Shown here piece by piece: positions 2,842 through 57,359 of a stretch of 64,000 nt of DNA. Location of the stretch: positions 558,001 to 622,000 of the forward strand of contig NZ_CP049715.1 of the NCBI RefSeq assembly GCF_011082725.1, in the 5' to 3' direction. Source of the DNA: Apibacter sp. B3706. GTDB taxonomy: Bacteria > Bacteroidota > Bacteroidia > Flavobacteriales > Weeksellaceae. A program made the position numbers and the translations under genes. The first letter of the stretch is position 1; every line of letters starts with the position of its first letter. Under the pieces are notes generated by a model. The model did no database searches. It was not told where the DNA came from and was given only the letters and a program-made list of their open reading frames with translations.

Positions 2842-3251
2842 AAATATTTTTAATTAAACCGTGTATATCAGCTTTTTTTAAGATAAAAAATTTTAGAAAG
2901 TGAGTCTTACGTAAACTTATAGGTATCCGCAACGAAAAATGTATAGGAGTAATTAAAAATATAAATAAAATTCTATTAAGATATTTATAATTAATTTGAG
3001 TTAAATTCAAAGAAAATTTTTAATTTAGCAAAAAATTTAGGGCGTTCATATATAGTAGAGATTCTGATAATTAAAGCTCAGGTTTTTATAACAGTATGTA
3101 GAGCACCTGAATATAACTTTTTTAGTTTAGTGTTTTAATTAATTCAGAAAAAAATAAATAGATCATGGTACAAATTCTTTTTAAGATGGTGTTAGTTATT
3201 ATGGATTACATAATGTCAATGTTAAGTTAATTAGAAAATTATATACATGTG
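2842..3251. other. AT-rich intergenic region with one short ORF
   Basis: No family-like gene is visible. A plus-strand frame at 3165-3230 would encode 21 mostly hydrophobic residues (MVQILFKMVLVIMDY, then IMSMLS) and is followed by a strong terminator. No ribosome-binding site or consensus promoter supports it clearly. Confidence 0.4.
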
Positions 3252-3287
3252 AAAAGTTCAGTTAATGTAAATTAACTGAACTTTTTA
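3252..3287 (+). terminator. Strong intrinsic terminator ahead of the acyltransferase gene
   Basis: A perfect 15-bp stem starting AAAAGTTCAG, with a GTAA loop, is followed by a T-rich tail. There is no plus-strand gene close upstream, so it must end a short unannotated transcript or attenuate the acyltransferase gene starting at 3313. Confidence 0.8.
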
Positions 3288-3312: not shown

Positions 3313-3873
3313 ATGAAAAAATTACTAGGAAGGTTAATGCTGTTCGTTATGGGATGGAGATTTAAAAATGAAGTATCTGTTAATGAATTAAGAAAATGCG
3401 TATTAATTTGTGCTCCCCATACCTCTAATTGGGATTTATATTATTGTTTAGCCAGTTTTTGGTGTTTAAAAATTCCTTATAAAGTAATGATTAAAGACGC
3501 TTATACCAAACCTTGGTATGGATTCTTTTTCAAAGCACTCGGATGTTTAGGAGTCGATCGAAGTCAATGGAATAATTTGGTTCAATATTCATCGAAACTA
3601 ATTAAAAATTCCGATTCGATGGCTTTAATAAATACTCCGGAAGCCACTCGCTCCCGTGCCTTACAATGGAAAAAAGGTTTTTACTATATAGCTAAGCAAG
3701 CGAATGTTCCTATAGCTCTAGCCTATGCCGATTATAAAAATAAAGTAACCGGTGTTTCCAAATTAATTTATATTGGCGATCAAACGATTGAAGAGATATT
3801 TGATCAAATAGAAGACTTTTATAAACCGGAAATGGCTAAATTTCCCGAAAACTATAATCCTAAAATTTATTAA
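3313..3873 (+). CDS. 1-acyl-glycerol-3-phosphate acyltransferase-like protein (PlsC family)
   Basis: A 186-residue acyltransferase. The catalytic HX4D motif is seen as HTSNWD near residue 36, and the second block reads NTPEATRSR near residue 108, where most PlsC proteins have PEGTRS. It lacks the N-terminal membrane segments of full PlsC and resembles the short cytoplasmic or peripheral lysophospholipid acyltransferases of Bacteroidota. The likely role is acylation of a lysophospholipid or another lipid acceptor; the acceptor is not known. It stands alone between a strong terminator-like hairpin 26 bases upstream and a pseudogene downstream. Confidence 0.8.
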   Translation: MKKLLGRLMLFVMGWRFKNEVSVNELRKCVLICAPHTSNWDLYYCLASFWCLKIPYKVMIKDAYTKPWYGFFFKALGCLGVDRSQWNNLVQYSSKLIKNSDSMALINTPEATRSRALQWKKGFYYIAKQANVPIALAYADYKNKVTGVSKLIYIGDQTIEEIFDQIEDFYKPEMAKFPENYNPKIY

Positions 3874-6080: not shown

Positions 6081-6153
6081 GACCTGGTAGCTCAGTTGGT
6101 AGAGCACAACACTTTTAATGTTGGGGTCCTGGGTTCGAGCCCCAGCCAGGTCA
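6081..6153 (+). tRNA. tRNA-Lys(TTT), first copy
   Basis: A 73-base cloverleaf. The acceptor stem is GACCTGG / CCAGGTC with discriminator A. The anticodon loop CTTTTAA lies in the stem CAACA/TGTTG, and the T loop has GGTTCGAGC. CCA is not encoded. It is identical to the copy at 6193. Confidence 0.97.
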
Positions 6154-6192
6154 CAATCTATTCAAAGAATAGATTAAATATACATTTAGGGA

Positions 6193-6265
6193 GACCTGGT
6201 AGCTCAGTTGGTAGAGCACAACACTTTTAATGTTGGGGTCCTGGGTTCGAGCCCCAGCCAGGTCA
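6193..6265 (+). tRNA. tRNA-Lys(TTT), second copy
   Basis: Identical over all 73 bases to the tRNA at 6081, with anticodon TTT. It follows after a 39-base spacer and shares the upstream promoter. Confidence 0.97.
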
Positions 6266-6311
6266 CATTTTGAAAATTCGCGCTTGAGATTCTCAAGCTT
6301 TTCTTGTTTAT

Positions 6312-6384
6312 GACTCCGTAGCTCAGTTGGTAGAGCAATTGACTCTTAATCAATGGGTCGAGAGTTCGAGCCTCTCCGGGGTCA
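6312..6384 (+). tRNA. tRNA-Lys(CTT)
   Basis: The acceptor stem GACTCCG / CGGGGTC has one wobble pair. The anticodon loop CTCTTAA in the stem ATTGA/TCAAT gives anticodon CTT, which reads AAG. CCA is not encoded. It is the third gene of the lysine tRNA cluster. Confidence 0.93.
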
Positions 6385-6397
6385 CTTAAAAATCAAT

Positions 6398-49951: not shown

Positions 49952-50509
49952 TTAGGCTTTAGGTTCTTCATTAGTTTCAGCCTGAGCATCAGTAGCAGCT
50001 TCATCTTCTGCGATGATTGCTTCTACTACTTCCTCTGCATCGTTAGCTTCTGCTTCTTCTGCTTTTTGTTGAGCAGCGATACGGCTTTCATTTACTTTTC
50101 TTTCAGCTTCAAGCTTTTCTTTTTTCGCTTGTTGCTTAGAAGAAGCCAATTTGTCTTTTTTAGCTTGAATAGCTTTTTCTTTGTCTTCCAACCAAGCTTG
50201 GAATTTTTTCTCTGCTTCTTCAGCCGAAAAAGCTCCTTTTTTAACCCCTCCGTTCAAATGCTTTTTTAATAAAGCACCTTTATAAGAAAGGATAGATTTT
50301 GCTGTATCTGATGGTTGAGCTCCTTTTTCTAACCAGCTCACTGCTCTGTCAACATTTAATTCAATGGTTGCAGGGTTGGTTGTAGGAACGTAAATTCCTA
50401 ATTTTTCGATGTTTTTACCATCTCTTTTAGCTCTAGAATCTGCTACAACAATGTGAAAAACCGGTTTTCCTTTTTTACCGTGTCTTTGTAATCTAATTTT
50501 TACTGCCAT
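49952..50509 (-). CDS. rpsP: 30S ribosomal protein S16 with long C-terminal tail
   Basis: The first 80 residues are S16 ([20 protein letters not shown], then [20 protein letters not shown] and [20 protein letters not shown]). Bacterial S16 usually ends near residue 80-90. Here a lysine-, alanine- and glutamate-rich extension runs to residue 185, with a probable helical part at 100-150 ([20 protein letters not shown]). An acidic end follows ([20 protein letters not shown]). Such tails occur in Bacteroidota. It is the first gene of the rpsP-rimM operon, with a promoter at 50553-50585. Confidence 0.97.
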
Positions 50510-50552
50510 AATTTTTTATTTTGGGATCCCGTCCCGTTATTAGTTAAGTTTG

Positions 50553-50585
50553 CAAATATACTACTTGTTTTATTATTGCTGCAAA
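50553..50585 (-). promoter_or_regulatory. Promoter of the rpsP-rimM operon
   Basis: On the minus strand TTTG (50582-50585) is followed after 21 bases by TATATTTG (50553-50560), about 43 bases before the rpsP start. The spacing is two bases longer than ideal. Confidence 0.65.
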
Positions 50586-50615
50586 TTTTTGTATACAAAT
50601 TATCGTTTTATACTC

Positions 50616-51671
50616 TTAGTTTTTCTTGGAAAAATGAGCATCCCAGCCTTGAGCATTCAACGGAATGTGCTGTGTATTTCCTTTGGTTATCAAAACATTT
50701 TCAACCGTTTCGGTAGCATGACCGATAATGGTGAAGTTAGGATTATGTTTGATCTTATCATGATCTTCAATAGGAATGGTAAATAAAATTTCATAATCTT
50801 CTCCCCCGTTCAATACCCCTGTTACGGGATTGATACCGAATTCTTCCGCCGTAGTAATTACCTGGCTGTCCATCGGGATTTTTTCTTCATAAATGGAGAA
50901 GCCAACGTTACTTTGTTGAGAAAGATGAATGATTTCAGAGGCCAACCCGTCGGAAATATCAATCATAGAAGTAGGATGTACGTCCATTTCTTTAAGTAAC
51001 GCTTTAATTTCCGTACGTGCTTCAGGTTTTAATTGCCTTTCCAAAATATAAGTATACCCCGATAAATCCGGTTGAAGGTTTGGGTTAACTTTAAAAACAG
51101 AATTTTCACGTTCCAATACTTGTAATCCGAAGTAAGCACCGCCTAAATCACCGCTGACAACCAAAAGGTCATTGGGTTTTGCTCCTTTTCGGTAGACAAT
51201 CTCGTCTTTATGAGCATATCCCACGGTAGAAATATTTATTACCAATCCCAGGTTGGATGAAGTGGTATCTCCTCCGACTAAATCTATAGAATAGTTTTTA
51301 CACGCCAGGTGGATTCCGGTATATATTTCTTCTAATGCTTCTACCGGAAAACGATTAGAAACGGCTATGGAAATCAGTATTTGTTCCGGAACGGCGTTCA
51401 TGGCAACCAAATCGCTGAGTCCGATAACTACAGACTTATAACCTAGATGTTTTAAAGGGGTATAAGCCAAATTGAAATGAATATTTTCCAATAGCATATC
51501 GGTAGAAACTAACACCTTTTTATCTTTTGGATCCAACACGGCGGAATCGTCACCAACTCCTTGTAGAGTAGAGGGATGTTTAGGTTTGAAATTTTGAGTA
51601 AGATGTTCGATCAGTCCAAATTCACCATATTCTGAAATTGAAGTTTTATATGGGTTCTTATTATCAAGCAT
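50616..51671 (-). CDS. thiL: Thiamine-monophosphate kinase
   Basis: ThiL phosphorylates thiamine monophosphate to thiamine diphosphate. The 351-residue protein carries the family's EFGLIEHLTQNFKPKHPSTL near residue 16 and GVGDDSAVLDPKDKKVLVST near residue 38, the metal and ATP site. SVVIGLSDLVAMNAVPEQIL lies near residue 80, DLVGGDTTSSN near residue 136, and GGEDYEILFTIP near residue 305. The start at 51671 gives MLDNKNPYKTSISEYGEFGL. It lies upstream of rpsP on the same strand, but the promoter between them suggests separate transcripts. Confidence 0.96.
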   Translation of the reverse strand: MLDNKNPYKTSISEYGEFGLIEHLTQNFKPKHPSTLQGVGDDSAVLDPKDKKVLVSTDMLLENIHFNLAYTPLKHLGYKSVVIGLSDLVAMNAVPEQILISIAVSNRFPVEALEEIYTGIHLACKNYSIDLVGGDTTSSNLGLVINISTVGYAHKDEIVYRKGAKPNDLLVVSGDLGGAYFGLQVLERENSVFKVNPNLQPDLSGYTYILERQLKPEARTEIKALLKEMDVHPTSMIDISDGLASEIIHLSQQSNVGFSIYEEKIPMDSQVITTAEEFGINPVTGVLNGGEDYEILFTIPIEDHDKIKHNPNFTIIGHATETVENVLITKGNTQHIPLNAQGWDAHFSKKN

Positions 51672-52196
51672 ACTGCGGATATCTATTAATTTATTTTGAA
51701 TTCGATTTTCGAATTTACGGCTTTTTCGGGTATATGCCTTATTATTTTATATTACGATCCGTAATTTTTTCGATTTTTACTAAATAGTTAAAGTTTAATT
51801 AAAATGTTTTACAAGGATAGAATGATATAAATTTATTTTTAGACTAAGAGATTCAGAGATTAATTTTTAAGGCTTTAACCCATAACAAAAACAACACCCC
51901 AATATCCGTAAATTCATAAACTACAAACAGATAGCCCATACTTATTTTCAAATAAAACCCAAATTAACTGATAATTTTATTCAGATAACTGAACAGTATC
52001 TTTGTGGTGATCAACAAGTTAAATTGAAAATAAGAAATCTCTAATAGGTATAGAAAAGCTTAATTGAAAAAAAGGCGTGAATAAGTAGTTAAATAAATTT
52101 GAAAACAATTCACAGCTGCTCAGGCAATGCATTAATTTTTATATACTATACAAGTATATTATTATAACTGAAAAGTATTAAAAATATTATATAAAA
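51672..52196. other. 525-base AT-rich intergenic region
   Basis: No coding sequence, remnant or hairpin is recognised in either strand. It lies between thiL and the Rieske-like lipoprotein gene. Confidence 0.4.
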
Positions 52197-52637
52197 TTAA
52201 TACGATATTATAACCGTATTTCCAATCAATTGCGCATTATAAATTTTAGGTGCTCGGTCAGCTATTTCTAACGGTTGACCGGAGGTTAGAGACCATTTTG
52301 CTCCATCTTCAGGACAATAGATATAAAAATCGTCCTTTACTTCCAATTGGGTATTAGGTCCCGGGCAAATATGCGGAGCATTTCTGTCGTATGCTAAAAA
52401 CTTATTAGCATCTATTCTAACCAATATTAAGCCCTTAGTACCGGTTAAAGGACCCGCTTCAATATAAGCATAACCATTAATACCGGATAATTTTTGGAAT
52501 TGAGGTAAATTAAGATCGGCTGAATAACTTATAGAAGAATTAGGAAAACAACTAATTGTTTTATTTCCATTTTCGCATTGGATGAAGAAGAATAACTGTG
52601 AAATTAATAATATATAAAGAATTAATTTTTTAATCAT
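52197..52637 (-). CDS. Rieske-fold lipoprotein without cluster ligands
   Basis: A 146-residue protein with a hydrophobic export signal and a cysteine at residue 21 (LFFFIQCENG), although the residue before it is not typical of a lipobox. The rest follows the Rieske fold. The first ligand loop reads ICPGP (Cys91, with Gly93 where His is expected) and the second CPEDGAKWSL (Cys108, with Asp111 in place of His). Both cysteines stay, but both histidine ligands are lost, so a normal 2Fe-2S cluster is unlikely. The ending GQPLEIADRAPKIYNAQL is typical of the domain. Function unknown; it is divergent from greA. Confidence 0.75.
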   Translation of the reverse strand: MIKKLILYILLISQLFFFIQCENGNKTISCFPNSSISYSADLNLPQFQKLSGINGYAYIEAGPLTGTKGLILVRIDANKFLAYDRNAPHICPGPNTQLEVKDDFYIYCPEDGAKWSLTSGQPLEIADRAPKIYNAQLIGNTVIISY

Positions 52638-52648
52638 AATAAATTTGC

Positions 52649-52656
52649 TAAATTTG
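52649..52656 (+). promoter_or_regulatory. -7 promoter element of greA
   Basis: TAAATTTG matches TAnnTTTG. Transcription would start near 52660, just before the terminator hairpin at 52665 and 80 bases before the greA start. The -33 element is poor. Confidence 0.6.
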
Positions 52657-52664
52657 CATACGGA

Positions 52665-52698
52665 TAATCCGACCGTGAAGAGTCGGGTTATTTTTTTT
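52665..52698 (+). terminator. Terminator hairpin in the greA leader
   Basis: A 9-bp stem TAATCCGAC / GTCGGGTTA with one T-G pair and an eight-base loop is followed by eight T residues. It begins about five bases after the expected transcription start and lies 42 bases before the greA ATG. No other plus-strand gene precedes it, so it should attenuate greA. Confidence 0.8.
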
Positions 52699-52739
52699 AT
52701 GTTTATAAATTACAACGCAAAATTACAAAAAATAGTATC

Positions 52740-53210
52740 ATGAATTATGTAACGAAAGAAGGTCTAGATAAATTACGTAAGGAACTTGATCAATTGGAAC
52801 AAGTTGAAAGACCTAAAATCACACAGCAAATTGCTGAAGCTAGGGATAAGGGTGATTTATCTGAAAATGCGGAATACGATGCGGCTAAAGAAGCACAAGG
52901 TCTGCTTGAAATGCGTATATCTAAGCTTAAAGATATAATTTCTAATTCTAAAATAATAGATCAATCGCAAGTTGATACTTCTAAAGTAGCTATATTATGT
53001 TCTGTTAAAATAAAGAATACTGCCAATGGACAGGAGATGAAGTATACCTTGGTTCCGGATACGGAAACCGACTTAAAAACCGGAAAAATTTCTGTTAATA
53101 CCCCCATAGCTAAAGGTCTTTTAGGAAAGGAAGTAGGAGAAACGGCAGAAATAAATTTACCGAACGGTAATCGAATTAATTTTGAAATTTTAGAAATTTC
53201 ATTAGATTAA
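52740..53210 (+). CDS. greA: Transcription elongation factor GreA
   Basis: GreA enters the secondary channel of RNA polymerase and stimulates cleavage of backtracked RNA. The 156-residue protein has the N-terminal coiled coil (YVTKEGLDKLRKELDQLEQV, with the acidic tip GDLSENAEYDAAKEAQG near residue 38). The C-terminal FKBP-like domain follows (LGKEVGETAEINLPNGNRIN). Length is normal. Its leader contains a terminator hairpin, so its expression is probably attenuated. The HIT gene follows 19 bases downstream and is probably in the same operon. Confidence 0.97.
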   Translation: MNYVTKEGLDKLRKELDQLEQVERPKITQQIAEARDKGDLSENAEYDAAKEAQGLLEMRISKLKDIISNSKIIDQSQVDTSKVAILCSVKIKNTANGQEMKYTLVPDTETDLKTGKISVNTPIAKGLLGKEVGETAEINLPNGNRINFEILEISLD

Positions 53211-53229
53211 TAAGCTAAATTTACAACCT

Positions 53230-53619
53230 ATGGCAAGTATATTTTCAAAAATCGTAGCAGGAGAAATTCCCTGTTATAAAGTTGCAGAAAGCGAAAAACA
53301 CCTTGCTTTTTTAGATGCATTTCCGGTAGTTATAGGTCACGTTTTAGTAATTCCTAAAAAAGAAACCGATAAATTGTTTGATTTGCCCAAAGAAGAGTAT
53401 GATGAATTAATGGATTTTACCTATAGGGTAGCTCAGGCAGTAGGTAAAGCTATTCCATGTTTACGGGTAGGAATGTCTGTACAAGGATTGGAAGTTCCCC
53501 ATGTTCATGTTCATCTGATCCCATTAAACGCTATCGGAGATATGAATTTTGGTAACAAATTGACACTGAGTTCGGAAGAATTTACTGAAATTGCTGACAA
53601 AATAAAGTCTTATCTATAG
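53230..53619 (+). CDS. HIT family protein
   Basis: A 129-residue histidine-triad protein. It opens with SIFSKIVAGEIPCYKVAESE and has FLDAFPVVIGHVLVIPKKET near residue 27. The triad HVHVHLIP lies near residue 92, with three alternating histidines. Such proteins hydrolyse nucleoside phosphoramidates and adenylated compounds. It lies 19 bases after greA and 67 bases before clpP on the same strand, so it is probably co-transcribed with greA. The exact substrate is unknown. Confidence 0.95.
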   Translation: MASIFSKIVAGEIPCYKVAESEKHLAFLDAFPVVIGHVLVIPKKETDKLFDLPKEEYDELMDFTYRVAQAVGKAIPCLRVGMSVQGLEVPHVHVHLIPLNAIGDMNFGNKLTLSSEEFTEIADKIKSYL

Positions 53620-53686
53620 GGACTTTTGTTTGGTATAGTTTTAGTGAGAAAATTAAGTAAAAAATTTTAGAAAAAGATTAATAAAA

Positions 53687-54346
53687 ATGGATTTAGGAAA
53701 AGAGTTCCATAAATATGCAGTAAAACACCAGGGAATTAATAGTCTGGCGGTAGATCAGTACGTAAATTCAATGACTCCATATATTACTGAAGAACGAAAA
53801 TTAAATGTAGCACAAATGGATGTGTTCTCTCGGTTGATGATGGATAGAATTATATTCCTGGGAACAGGTATAGACGATCAAATAGCCAATATTGTAACCG
53901 CTCAATTATTGTTCTTGGAAAGTACAGATGCCAATAAAGATATTCAAATATATATTAATTCTCCCGGAGGAGGAGTGTATGCCGGACTAGGTATATACGA
54001 TACCATGCAAATTATTAAGCCCGATGTGGCTACTATTTGTACCGGTATGGCTGCTTCTATGGGAGCCGTATTATTGACCGCAGGTGCTGCCGGAAAAAGA
54101 TCAGCATTGAAACATTCTCGAATTATGATTCATCAGCCATTGGGAGGAGCTCAAGGGCAAGCCTCCGATATGGAGATTACATTAAAGGAGATCTTGAAGC
54201 TGAAAAAAGAATTATACGAAATTTTGGCAGAGCATTCCGGTCAACCTTTTGAAAAAATTGAGAAGGATTCAGATAGGGACTATTGGATGATTGCTTCAGA
54301 AGCTAAAGAATATGGACTTATTGATGAAGTTCTTGAAAAACGGTAA
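53687..54346 (+). CDS. clpP: ATP-dependent Clp protease proteolytic subunit
   Basis: ClpP forms a barrel of two seven-membered rings that degrades proteins handed over by ClpX or similar ATPases. The 219-residue protein shows [20 protein letters not shown] and [17 protein letters not shown]. The catalytic Ser124 lies in [11 protein letters not shown] and His149 in [10 protein letters not shown], with an Asp further on. The C-terminal [18 protein letters not shown] is typical. Length fits, allowing for a short N-terminal propeptide. A strong terminator follows. Confidence 0.98.
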
Positions 54347-54397
54347 AGCTTTGTTTTGTTGAGAACCACATACATATAATATAATATTTATACTAAG

Positions 54398-54435
54398 ACT
54401 TTCGTTTGTTCGATATATACAAACGAAAGTTTTTT
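54398..54435 (+). terminator. Terminator after clpP
   Basis: A perfect 12-bp stem ACTTTCGTTTGT / ACAAACGAAAGT with a nine-base loop, followed by six T residues. It stands about 50 bases after clpP and 20 bases before the next start. Confidence 0.92.
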
Positions 54436-54455
54436 GTTTTTTTAAATAACGTTCA

Positions 54456-57359
54456 ATGAGTAATAAATTACTTTTTTTGTTTGCATTTTTATTTAGTTTA
54501 TCTTATAATGCACAAATCAAAATTACGGGGGTAATTATAAATCAGGACACCCAGCGTCCTATTGAAGGAGCAAAAATATCTTTTCCTGAAGCTCCCGAAA
54601 TTTCAACCCTTTCAAATAATATTGGATATTTTTCACTCGAATCTAAAAATAACTTTGATTCTATCGTTGTTCAGATTGTAAATTATAAGAAAAAGTCATT
54701 TCCTGTCAATAAAAAACAAAACTTAAATTTAATTATTAAATTCTCTGAAAAAGATAAGATTGGTACATCCTCAATTCCTCCATCAATTACCAATCAAACT
54801 AAAATTGATACGGATAGTATATCACCATCTTCTAACCAACAAGTTAATTACGTTAGAGTTTCCGGTCAATTGCTAGATGAAGATACAGAGAAGCCAATTC
54901 CGGATGCTGATATTTTTCTTAAAAATACTCAGGTTTACGCCACTACAGACAGTGACGGTAATTTTGAATTACAATCCAATAAATTCATTGACACGTTACA
55001 AATTATTACAGATAAATACCCGACAAAATATATACCTTTACAAAGGGGAGATAATCTAGGCTTAATTGTAAATCTCAAATTAAAGAGCAAAAATAGTAGC
55101 CAATCAACCGATAAAGGAACCGTAAGCAAAGAAAAGGAAATAGACGAGGTAGTAGTTACCGGCTTTCCGAAAAAGCGTTTACCTAAAAAAGAAAATCCGG
55201 CATACCGCATACTGCGTGAATTATGGAAGAGAAGAAGAACCAACGGTTTGACAAATTTTAAGAATTATCAATATAAAGAATATGAGAAAATCGAATTTGA
55301 TTTAAATAATGTTGATAGTGCTTTTATAAGTAAAAAAATCTTTAAAAAATTAAACATTTCAGCCAAAGACATAGATACATTAGATATCTCAGGAAAAACG
55401 TACATTCCCGTTTTTCTTAACGAATCCCTTTCCGATATTGTTGGACAAAATACACCTTCTAAACGGGAAAAATCCTTTTTGAGAGGAAATAAAGCTTCCG
55501 GAATTCCTAATAATGATATTGTAGCCAATACGGTTAAAAATTTGTATAAAGATGTTAACATATACGATAATGTGTTAAACTTTTTTAATAAAGGATTCAC
55601 CAGTCCGGTAGCTACTATTGGATTTTCCGTATACGATTATTTATTAGCTGATACGGTTTCCGTAGATGGAGTTGATTGTTATTATATTAAATACAGGCCT
55701 CGAAGAGATAATGAGCTTACTTTTAAAGGAGATTTATATATTACTAAAGATACTTATGCAGTAAAGCAAGTTACCTTACAATCCACTTCGGGTATTAATG
55801 TAAACTTCGTTAAAGACATATATATGGAATTGAATTATGACAATGTCAATGATTCAATTTTTATTCCATTACGAAATTACACGGTTTTGGATATGTCTCT
55901 TATAACTAAAAAAGAAGGAGGAAAAGGTATGTTTGCAAAACGTACCATAACTTATAATGATTATAAATTCGATGAACCGCAAGGCACTGTAGAAAAACTT
56001 TTAGATCAACAATGGGAACCTATTTCCGAAGGAGCTTACAACCGAAAAGATGATTTTTGGGCCGACAATCGTCCGGATCGTCTTAATGAAGATGATAAAA
56101 AGGCATATGAAATGGTAGACAAGGTATCTAAAACCCGATTATTTAGAAATATTGTAGATGCCGTACAAATTCTTTCCTCAGGCTATGTCAATGTGGGTAA
56201 TGCCATTGATATTGGAAATCTATATCAAACACTAGGATATAACGATGTTGAAGGAACCAGAATTCGTTTAGGAGCCAGGACGTTTTTCTCTCCCAATGAT
56301 ATGTGGAGAGTGGAAGGATATACGGCATACGGATTTAAAGATGATCAATTTAAATATGGTTTTGAAGGGCGCTTGATGTTAAACAAATACAATCGTTTTA
56401 CTATAGGTGCGGGAACAAAAAGGGATATAACTCAATTAGGGACTTCGCTTACAGAAAATGAGGGAATTATGACCCGTTCTTTTGCGTCATCTTCCATCAT
56501 ATCCCGAGGAAGTAATGAATATTTGAGTTCTGTCAATCAAACCAATGCATTTTTATCTATTGAACCGTGGAAAAACGTACAATTGCGATTAGATGGAACT
56601 TATCAATACATAAAATCGGCGAATCCTTACAAATTTAATATTGGGTATTACAACAAAAAAGGAGATATTAAAAACGATTTGTATGATTCTCACTTAACAT
56701 TTAGTATTCAAGCGAGACCGGGAGCTAAATATTCTCGTTTTGGATTAGACAGATATGAGCATACGACTTTATCTCCAACCTTAATTTTAAAATATATAAA
56801 AGGATTCAATGGAGTGTTGGATGGTGATTTTAACTATGATAAAATACAATTTTTATACAATCATCCGATCCTTTGGGGACCGATTGGTAAATCGAATGTT
56901 ACTTTTGAATTCGGTAAATCGTTTAATAAATTGCCCTTATCCTTGTTAGGAATCATACCAGGTAACCAGTCTTACGGTATCGTAAATAATACCTTTGCAT
57001 TGCTGGATTACTATGATTTCGTAACAGATATTTATACGGCATTGCATGTTGAACATCACTTCAACGGAAGGATATTTTCCTATATTCCTTTATTGAAAAA
57101 ATTACAATTAAGAGAAGTAGCGATTTTCAGAGGTGTTTGGGGAGATATATCCGAAGGCTCCAAGAATATGAATGCTTCTAATATCAGATATGTAGCGCCT
57201 AATAAAGATATCTATTATGAATATGGATTTGGTATCGAAAATATAGGGTTTGGAAATTTAAGAATCTTTAGAGTAGATTTTAACTGGAGAGGGAATTACT
57301 TACATATGCCGGATGTTAATAAATTCGGAGTTAAATTTGGAATGCAATTTACATTCTAA
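54456..57359 (+). CDS. DUF5686 protein with carboxypeptidase-regulatory domains
   Basis: A 967-residue outer membrane protein of Bacteroidota. A signal peptide (LLFLFAFLFSLSYNAQ) is followed by two carboxypeptidase-regulatory-like beta domains: ITGVIINQDTQRPIEGAKIS near residue 23 and VSGQLLDEDTEKPIPDADIF near residue 134. The DUF5686 region runs from about residue 225 and includes VTGFPKKRLPKKENPAYRIL. The last third is barrel-like and ends in aromatic residues (GVKFGMQFTF), as in outer membrane proteins. Its function is unknown; TonB-receptor-like surface roles have been suggested for the family. It stands after clpP beyond a terminator. Confidence 0.9.
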   Translation: MSNKLLFLFAFLFSLSYNAQIKITGVIINQDTQRPIEGAKISFPEAPEISTLSNNIGYFSLESKNNFDSIVVQIVNYKKKSFPVNKKQNLNLIIKFSEKDKIGTSSIPPSITNQTKIDTDSISPSSNQQVNYVRVSGQLLDEDTEKPIPDADIFLKNTQVYATTDSDGNFELQSNKFIDTLQIITDKYPTKYIPLQRGDNLGLIVNLKLKSKNSSQSTDKGTVSKEKEIDEVVVTGFPKKRLPKKENPAYRILRELWKRRRTNGLTNFKNYQYKEYEKIEFDLNNVDSAFISKKIFKKLNISAKDIDTLDISGKTYIPVFLNESLSDIVGQNTPSKREKSFLRGNKASGIPNNDIVANTVKNLYKDVNIYDNVLNFFNKGFTSPVATIGFSVYDYLLADTVSVDGVDCYYIKYRPRRDNELTFKGDLYITKDTYAVKQVTLQSTSGINVNFVKDIYMELNYDNVNDSIFIPLRNYTVLDMSLITKKEGGKGMFAKRTITYNDYKFDEPQGTVEKLLDQQWEPISEGAYNRKDDFWADNRPDRLNEDDKKAYEMVDKVSKTRLFRNIVDAVQILSSGYVNVGNAIDIGNLYQTLGYNDVEGTRIRLGARTFFSPNDMWRVEGYTAYGFKDDQFKYGFEGRLMLNKYNRFTIGAGTKRDITQLGTSLTENEGIMTRSFASSSIISRGSNEYLSSVNQTNAFLSIEPWKNVQLRLDGTYQYIKSANPYKFNIGYYNKKGDIKNDLYDSHLTFSIQARPGAKYSRFGLDRYEHTTLSPTLILKYIKGFNGVLDGDFNYDKIQFLYNHPILWGPIGKSNVTFEFGKSFNKLPLSLLGIIPGNQSYGIVNNTFALLDYYDFVTDIYTALHVEHHFNGRIFSYIPLLKKLQLREVAIFRGVWGDISEGSKNMNASNIRYVAPNKDIYYEYGFGIENIGFGNLRIFRVDFNWRGNYLHMPDVNKFGVKFGMQFTF

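Follow-up and report, generated by a model that had tools for sequence, protein, structure and literature searches.

Attenuation of greA in other bacteria

In Escherichia coli, about two thirds of the greA transcripts are reported to stop at the terminator of GraL, a short leader RNA, and GreA itself raises the amount of this terminated RNA (PMC6829880). Deletion of greA increases expression of a fusion about 3.5-fold, a D41A mutant of GreA lacks repression, and both catalytically active GreA and a GraL located in cis are required for repression (PMC6829880). Feedback of GreA on its own leader is documented in this species, with a mechanism that is unsettled (PMC6829880). Attenuators in front of greA are known from Proteobacteria, Bacilli and Clostridia, and greA/rnk takes seventh place in a list of frequently attenuated families (PMC2965389). 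Here, the greA leader of Apibacter sp. B3706 (Bacteroidota, Flavobacteriales, Weeksellaceae) is described, which lies in a stretch of 64,000 nucleotides (the window, positions 558001-622000 of the 2.3-Mb single-contig genome). Conservation, covariation and the coupling to a promoter motif lend good support to a putative attenuator with a layout resembling that of GraL, as the sequence-only reading of this locus had proposed. The explanation as a whole, in which a leader terminator limits GreA and is most likely regulated by GreA itself, is considered probable. Attenuation of greA by the leader terminator appears highly probable, while feedback of GreA on its own leader, suggested by analogy to E. 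coli, is plausible if tentative.

The likeness to GraL (Rfam family RF01769, “Enterobacteria greA leader”) lies in the order of elements, i.e., promoter, intrinsic terminator, rest of the leader and greA, in the size of the short RNA (37-59 nt in E. coli, PMC6829880; predicted 38-45 nt in the genus), and in the presence of the GreA tip residues. In E. coli, however, the stem begins after 19 nt (PMC6829880), compared to about +4 here, and the short RNA and its dependence on GreA are reported from experiments, whereas those of the present system are predicted from sequence. The greA/rnk leaders of Naville and Gautheret, 2010 (PMC2965389) likewise have, in many species, a terminator in the 5' region ahead of greA that is oriented like the gene, but antiterminators are reported there, for which this genus offers almost no room. 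The main text of that study contains neither “Bacteroid” nor “Flavobacter”, its supplementary species table lying outside this check. Within the same order, 64 structured leaders have been reported from the transcriptome of Flavobacterium psychrophilum; like the element described here, these are structured 5' transcribed regions without an Rfam match, but greA does not occur in the main text and may stand in the list of Table S7 (PMC9723704). Searched by term, greA is absent from the main texts of PMC9723704, PMC10994844 and PMC7366714 (supplements lay outside the search), and the literature matches listed, judged by titles and the beginnings of abstracts, include no description of an attenuator in a Bacteroidota greA leader. 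The kind of attenuator is already known; distinctive in this genus is the stem at about +4, an unusually compact layout.

A predicted terminator between promoter and greA

The greA gene (52740..53210, plus strand) encodes a protein with PF03449 and PF01272 domains and 43% identity to E. coli GreA across 151 residues. Both D and E are conserved in its GDLxEN tip, which is a precondition for the putative feedback, not evidence for it. A gap of 102 bases between greA and a divergent upstream neighbour (52197..52637, minus strand; no Pfam match) holds a promoter motif, a stem and a T run. The stem is formed by a 5' arm (ATAATCCGAC, 52664..52673, plus strand) and a 3' arm (GTCGGGTTAT, 52682..52691), which enclose a loop of 8 bases (CGTGAAGA, 52674..52681); it comprises 10 pairs including one G-U and is followed by a run of eight T (the U tract of the RNA, 52691..52698), from which 41 bases separate the ATG at 52740. 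The sequence-only reading had described a 9-bp hairpin with eight U before the greA ATG, and this is borne out: since the first T can close the outermost pair, 9 bp with eight U and 10 bp with seven U are the same hairpin. Scanning positions 50000-55000 for terminators yielded 7 sites (shuffle mean 2.9), and the site in the greA leader has the most pairs. For the segment 52660-52700 (41 nt), a folding energy of -14.5 kcal/mol was obtained (z -3.41), and 2/200 shuffles are equally stable.

Directly upstream, the Bacteroidota -7 consensus, TAnnTTTG as quoted in PMC7366714, is represented twice on the plus strand. The second copy (TAAATTTG, 52649..52656) is the likely -7 element of the greA promoter, with a predicted start at about 52660-52661, and the first (TAAATTTG, 52640..52647) might be an alternative promoter. 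Placing the start near 52660 is a motif-based prediction; for all stem positions and RNA lengths given here, the start was assumed on the fifth base after it. An intrinsic terminator stands between promoter and greA, promoter and terminator being predicted from sequence only. RNA polymerase would start at about 52660 and, within approximately 40 nt, would either stop at the U tract and release a predicted RNA of 38 nt, or read through into greA and probably also into the HIT-family gene directly 3' of it (53230..53619, plus strand). Judged by the short intergenic gap, the latter gene presumably shares the greA transcript. The terminator would thereby limit GreA, presumably by partial termination in vivo, and GreA itself would be the most likely regulator, as in E. 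coli.

An additional -7-type motif, TAATTTTG, is found on the minus strand at 52718-52725. It suggests that the transcript of the divergent gene would start near 52714 and cross the greA hairpin in reverse. In that case, the 5' leaders of both genes would overlap, with sequences complementary to each other.

Conservation and covariation in relatives

Relatives were scored for a hairpin with a T tract immediately after it, at most 160 bases from the start codon, with a cut-off of -8 kcal/mol; as a positive control, the same scorer found the terminator of the E. coli greA leader at -18.6. Four samples were compared: genus plus family (greA leaders from 91 of 100 genomes with a match), named relatives (the best 80 of 593, which may overlap genus and family genomes, e.g., L095 vs L078), the order (55 loci, i.e., all 51 matched genomes outside the family plus four repeats, L172-L175, of the family genomes L034, L040, L041 and L048), and the phylum outside the order (54 of 72 genomes). 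A hairpin at -8 kcal/mol or better is present in 9/9 leaders of the genus, so that the absence from close relatives that would have spoken against the sequence-only reading did not occur. Beyond the genus, it is present in 89/91 genus-plus-family leaders, 72/80 named relatives, 43/55 order loci (39/51 without the four repeats) and 54/54 phylum loci. Where enough upstream sequence was available (L049 and L109, with short upstream sequence, were excluded from this strand control), the sense strand gave a hairpin in 89/90 family, 71/79 named, 43/55 order and 54/54 phylum loci, and the antisense strand in 8/90 of the family. Dinucleotide shuffles carried one in 15/270 (family), 18/237 (named), 26/165 (order) and 23/162 (phylum) cases. 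Conservation, strand control and shuffles disfavour a chance fold.

Leaders of other genes served as a further control, for which, as for gene direction, genes were called by a simple open reading frame heuristic. Only 10/98 divergent leaders of the same genome contain a hairpin, greA included; because the window and L286 overlap by 12 kb, some genes are counted twice here, one of them among the 10 matches. For a sample of divergent leaders drawn from five further phylum genomes, the count is 6/66.

The hairpin is also coupled to the promoter motif. An exact TAnnTTTG lies no more than 60 bases before the hairpin in 90/90 genus-plus-family leaders (L049 excluded) and in 73/80 named leaders, compared to 10/275 for an 84-base control stretch located further upstream. 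For this count, any hairpin of -5.5 kcal/mol or lower was accepted, and the motif could end between 16 bases inside and 60 bases before it. Between hairpin and ATG, the motif is found in 0/90 family, 0/76 named and 0/54 phylum leaders with a hairpin, and in 3/47 of those from the order. A promoter downstream of the hairpin was rejected, as none of the 90 family leaders has TAnnTTTG there.

Comparison of the stems themselves argues for selection on pairing. Segments were cut around stem anchors, which required complementarity and 6 or more T among the 11 bases that follow, and thus favour pairing and T tract; L009 and L049 gave no anchor and are outside the figures for stem, T count, covariation and stem position. 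Across the 10-pair stem in a MAFFT alignment of 49 distinct family segments, 93.4% of cells are standard pairs, and double-sided changes occupy 36 cells, compared to 11.4 for shuffles and no more than 9 for slid controls. The covariation score is 0.336 and falls to 0.067 or less with one arm slid; because the segments were cut around complementarity-based anchors, this result leans partly towards pairing. RNAalifold, unaided, recovers 7 of the 10 pairs. The 12 bases after the anchor contain 9 or 10 T in 89/89 family stems, of which the anchoring itself required 6 in 11. The sequence of the stem differs between genera (TCCGGC/GTCGGA, TCCTGC/GTAGGA, TCCCCAC/GTGCGGGA) and loop length varies widely; loci L038, L039, L044, L067, L068, L077 and L086, for example, have TTCCGCAC or TCCCCAC-type stems that remain paired and occupy the same position upstream of greA. 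Retention of pairing and T tract despite sequence change is what a terminator requires. Taken with conservation and strand control, covariation indicates that the terminator is kept by selection in relatives.

Compact layout and alternative explanations

In eight leaders of the genus, the stem is predicted to start at +3 to +5 and the terminated RNA to measure 38-45 nt; in the 81 leaders from the rest of the family, the predicted stem start ranges from +2 to +37 (median +21) and the RNA from 37 to 65 nt. Such a position in the genus recalls mRNA protection, since 5' stem-loops in this position are known to stabilise mRNAs. The stem-loop might accordingly shield greA mRNA from decay or bind a protein, with termination being incidental. 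This is judged unlikely: the T tract, which is kept with the stem throughout the family (subject to the anchoring requirement given above), would be unneeded for protection alone, and elsewhere in the family the stem lies further in. A classical attenuator, in which a ligand, protein or ribosome is sensed via an antiterminator competing with the terminator, would have precedent in the clear antiterminator reported for each cluster of greA and rnk leaders (PMC2965389). The locus even contains a candidate, a weak 4-bp CGGA-TAA-TCCG hairpin (52661..52671, plus strand) that overlaps the terminator 5' arm and accounts for a fold of -3.3 kcal/mol before the 3' arm is made. In the genus, however, only about 3 bases precede the stem, and what is transcribed ahead of the 3' arm reaches only 0 to -3.3 kcal/mol (-3.3 in 4/8 leaders, no fold in 3/8), against a median of -13.75 kcal/mol for the terminated RNA. 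The 81 other family leaders reach -6.0 kcal/mol at the extreme, but their median is -0.1, and no Rfam riboswitch or leader was found at gathering score in the window or five Bacteroidota loci. Sensing through an antiterminator is considered just as improbable as protection, and according to the folding models, a strong antiterminator before the stem is absent in this genus. Because the stem starts at about +4, there is no room for a sizeable one, and the choice between stop and read-through should therefore be set by how the polymerase behaves or by a factor encountering the hairpin, which is how control in the genus would operate.

The hairpin could also have its main function outside greA. 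The E. coli GraL is reported to act in trans as well (PMC6829880), and in part of the family the stem-loop TCCGGC-AAA(T/G)-GTCGGA is near-constant, as might be expected if the main product were a trans-acting small RNA and control of greA secondary. Compensated stem changes across genera and the widely varying loop are unlike a kept seed, which makes this rather improbable. A role as 3' terminator of an upstream transcript, or as insulator against read-through into greA, is the most remote of the explanations considered, and conflicts with gene direction: the neighbour at 52197-52637 is divergent, so that the greA-leader hairpin is not its 3' terminator, and the second gene upstream (50616..51671) is on the minus strand as well. 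A divergent neighbour is found in 88/90 family loci and a codirectional one in 2/90 (L049 excluded here; 3 named loci were too short for this count), and in the family the promoter motif stands before the hairpin and not after it. Accordingly, a 3' terminator of an upstream gene was rejected for the window and the family, though not for every distant genome: upstream genes are frequently codirectional in the order and phylum samples, the motif follows the hairpin in the 3 order loci mentioned above, and such a role may hold for some of them.

Several observations weigh against the favoured explanation of a leader terminator that limits GreA, or limit the support for it. The whole 80-nt leader reaches a z of only -1.70, with 15/200 shuffles equally stable, so that folding energy of the single sequence is modest evidence and the case rests on comparison. 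Pair types in the stem are less striking than double-sided changes (12 vs 10.0, with 20/500 shuffles as high). In the order, 12/55 loci have no hairpin at -8 kcal/mol, and antisense hairpins are more frequent in the distant samples than in the family (14/79 named, 10/55 order, 19/54 phylum). Codirectional leaders of the same genome carry a hairpin in 22/105 cases. TAnnTTTG precedes the hairpin in only 32/55 order and 14/54 phylum loci; the few motifs in the phylum may reflect other promoter types or hairpins that belong to upstream genes. Since a codirectional upstream gene is called in 27/55 order loci with a hairpin and in 39/54 phylum loci, some hairpins in these samples may be ordinary 3' terminators. 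With respect to feedback, the authors of the E. coli study did not observe autoregulation of greA in vitro, found it partly retained after GraL had been scrambled, and suspect another factor (PMC6829880); a direct route via GreA is therefore unproven even there.

A wider version of the attenuator explanation extends it to the phylum: a greA attenuator without antiterminator, with its terminator so near the start (about 40 bases at most in this genus) that read-through directly reports the state of the polymerase (pausing, backtracking, GreA occupancy), would turn the leader into a self-contained sensor for the activity of GreA, either retained or repeatedly re-evolved across Bacteroidota in a layout matching that of E. 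coli. This is a speculative and somewhat doubtful extension. With its own type of promoter motif, and with a minimal stem and U tract conserved immediately behind the predicted start, this second phylum could serve as a stripped-down system for asking whether termination is controlled by polymerase state alone. Genomes of 0.3-0.6 Mb offer a natural set for studying GreA control under genome reduction, as five of them (L229, L186, L187, L190, L191) have a hairpin at -8 kcal/mol in 0/5 greA leaders; of five scored genomes from another family, 1.3-1.5 Mb in size, only one has such a hairpin, which is A+T-rich. Loss of the hairpin where genomes are small is consistent with a role in regulation rather than an essential one, although the sample is small and high A+T alone could explain it.

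Database searches and other features of the window

The GraL family, RF01769, scores 127.5 bits on E. coli K-12, but matched none of five Bacteroidota loci, and the window contains no match to it of at least 60 bits or at gathering score. Rfam release 15, searched at gathering score, returned 4 tRNA matches only for the whole window. Relaxed to E values of 10 or less, a search of 52400-52900 gave 5 weak matches, none of them RF01769 and all far below their gathering scores (the best, STnc240, at 19.7 vs 55 bits). A known Rfam element at the greA hairpin was rejected on the lack of any match at gathering score. The hairpin is accordingly a covarying RNA element to which Rfam release 15 gave no match, either in the window or among the five Bacteroidota loci. 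Besides the full match, a DNA search for further copies of the element in the genome, as expected of a regulon, returned 41 partial matches that were short or weak, with a best E value of 0.03.

Two further features of the window lie far from greA. A long, near-perfect inverted repeat (TGAAAAGTTCAGTTAAT...) at 3250-3287, before an open reading frame at 3313, folds at -18.6 kcal/mol and is followed by a T-rich stretch. It sits in a gap of 497 bases and is the most stable terminator-like site among the sampled divergent leaders of the genome. Finally, three lysine tRNA genes are arranged in tandem at 6081-6385, two with the anticodon ttt and one with ctt.
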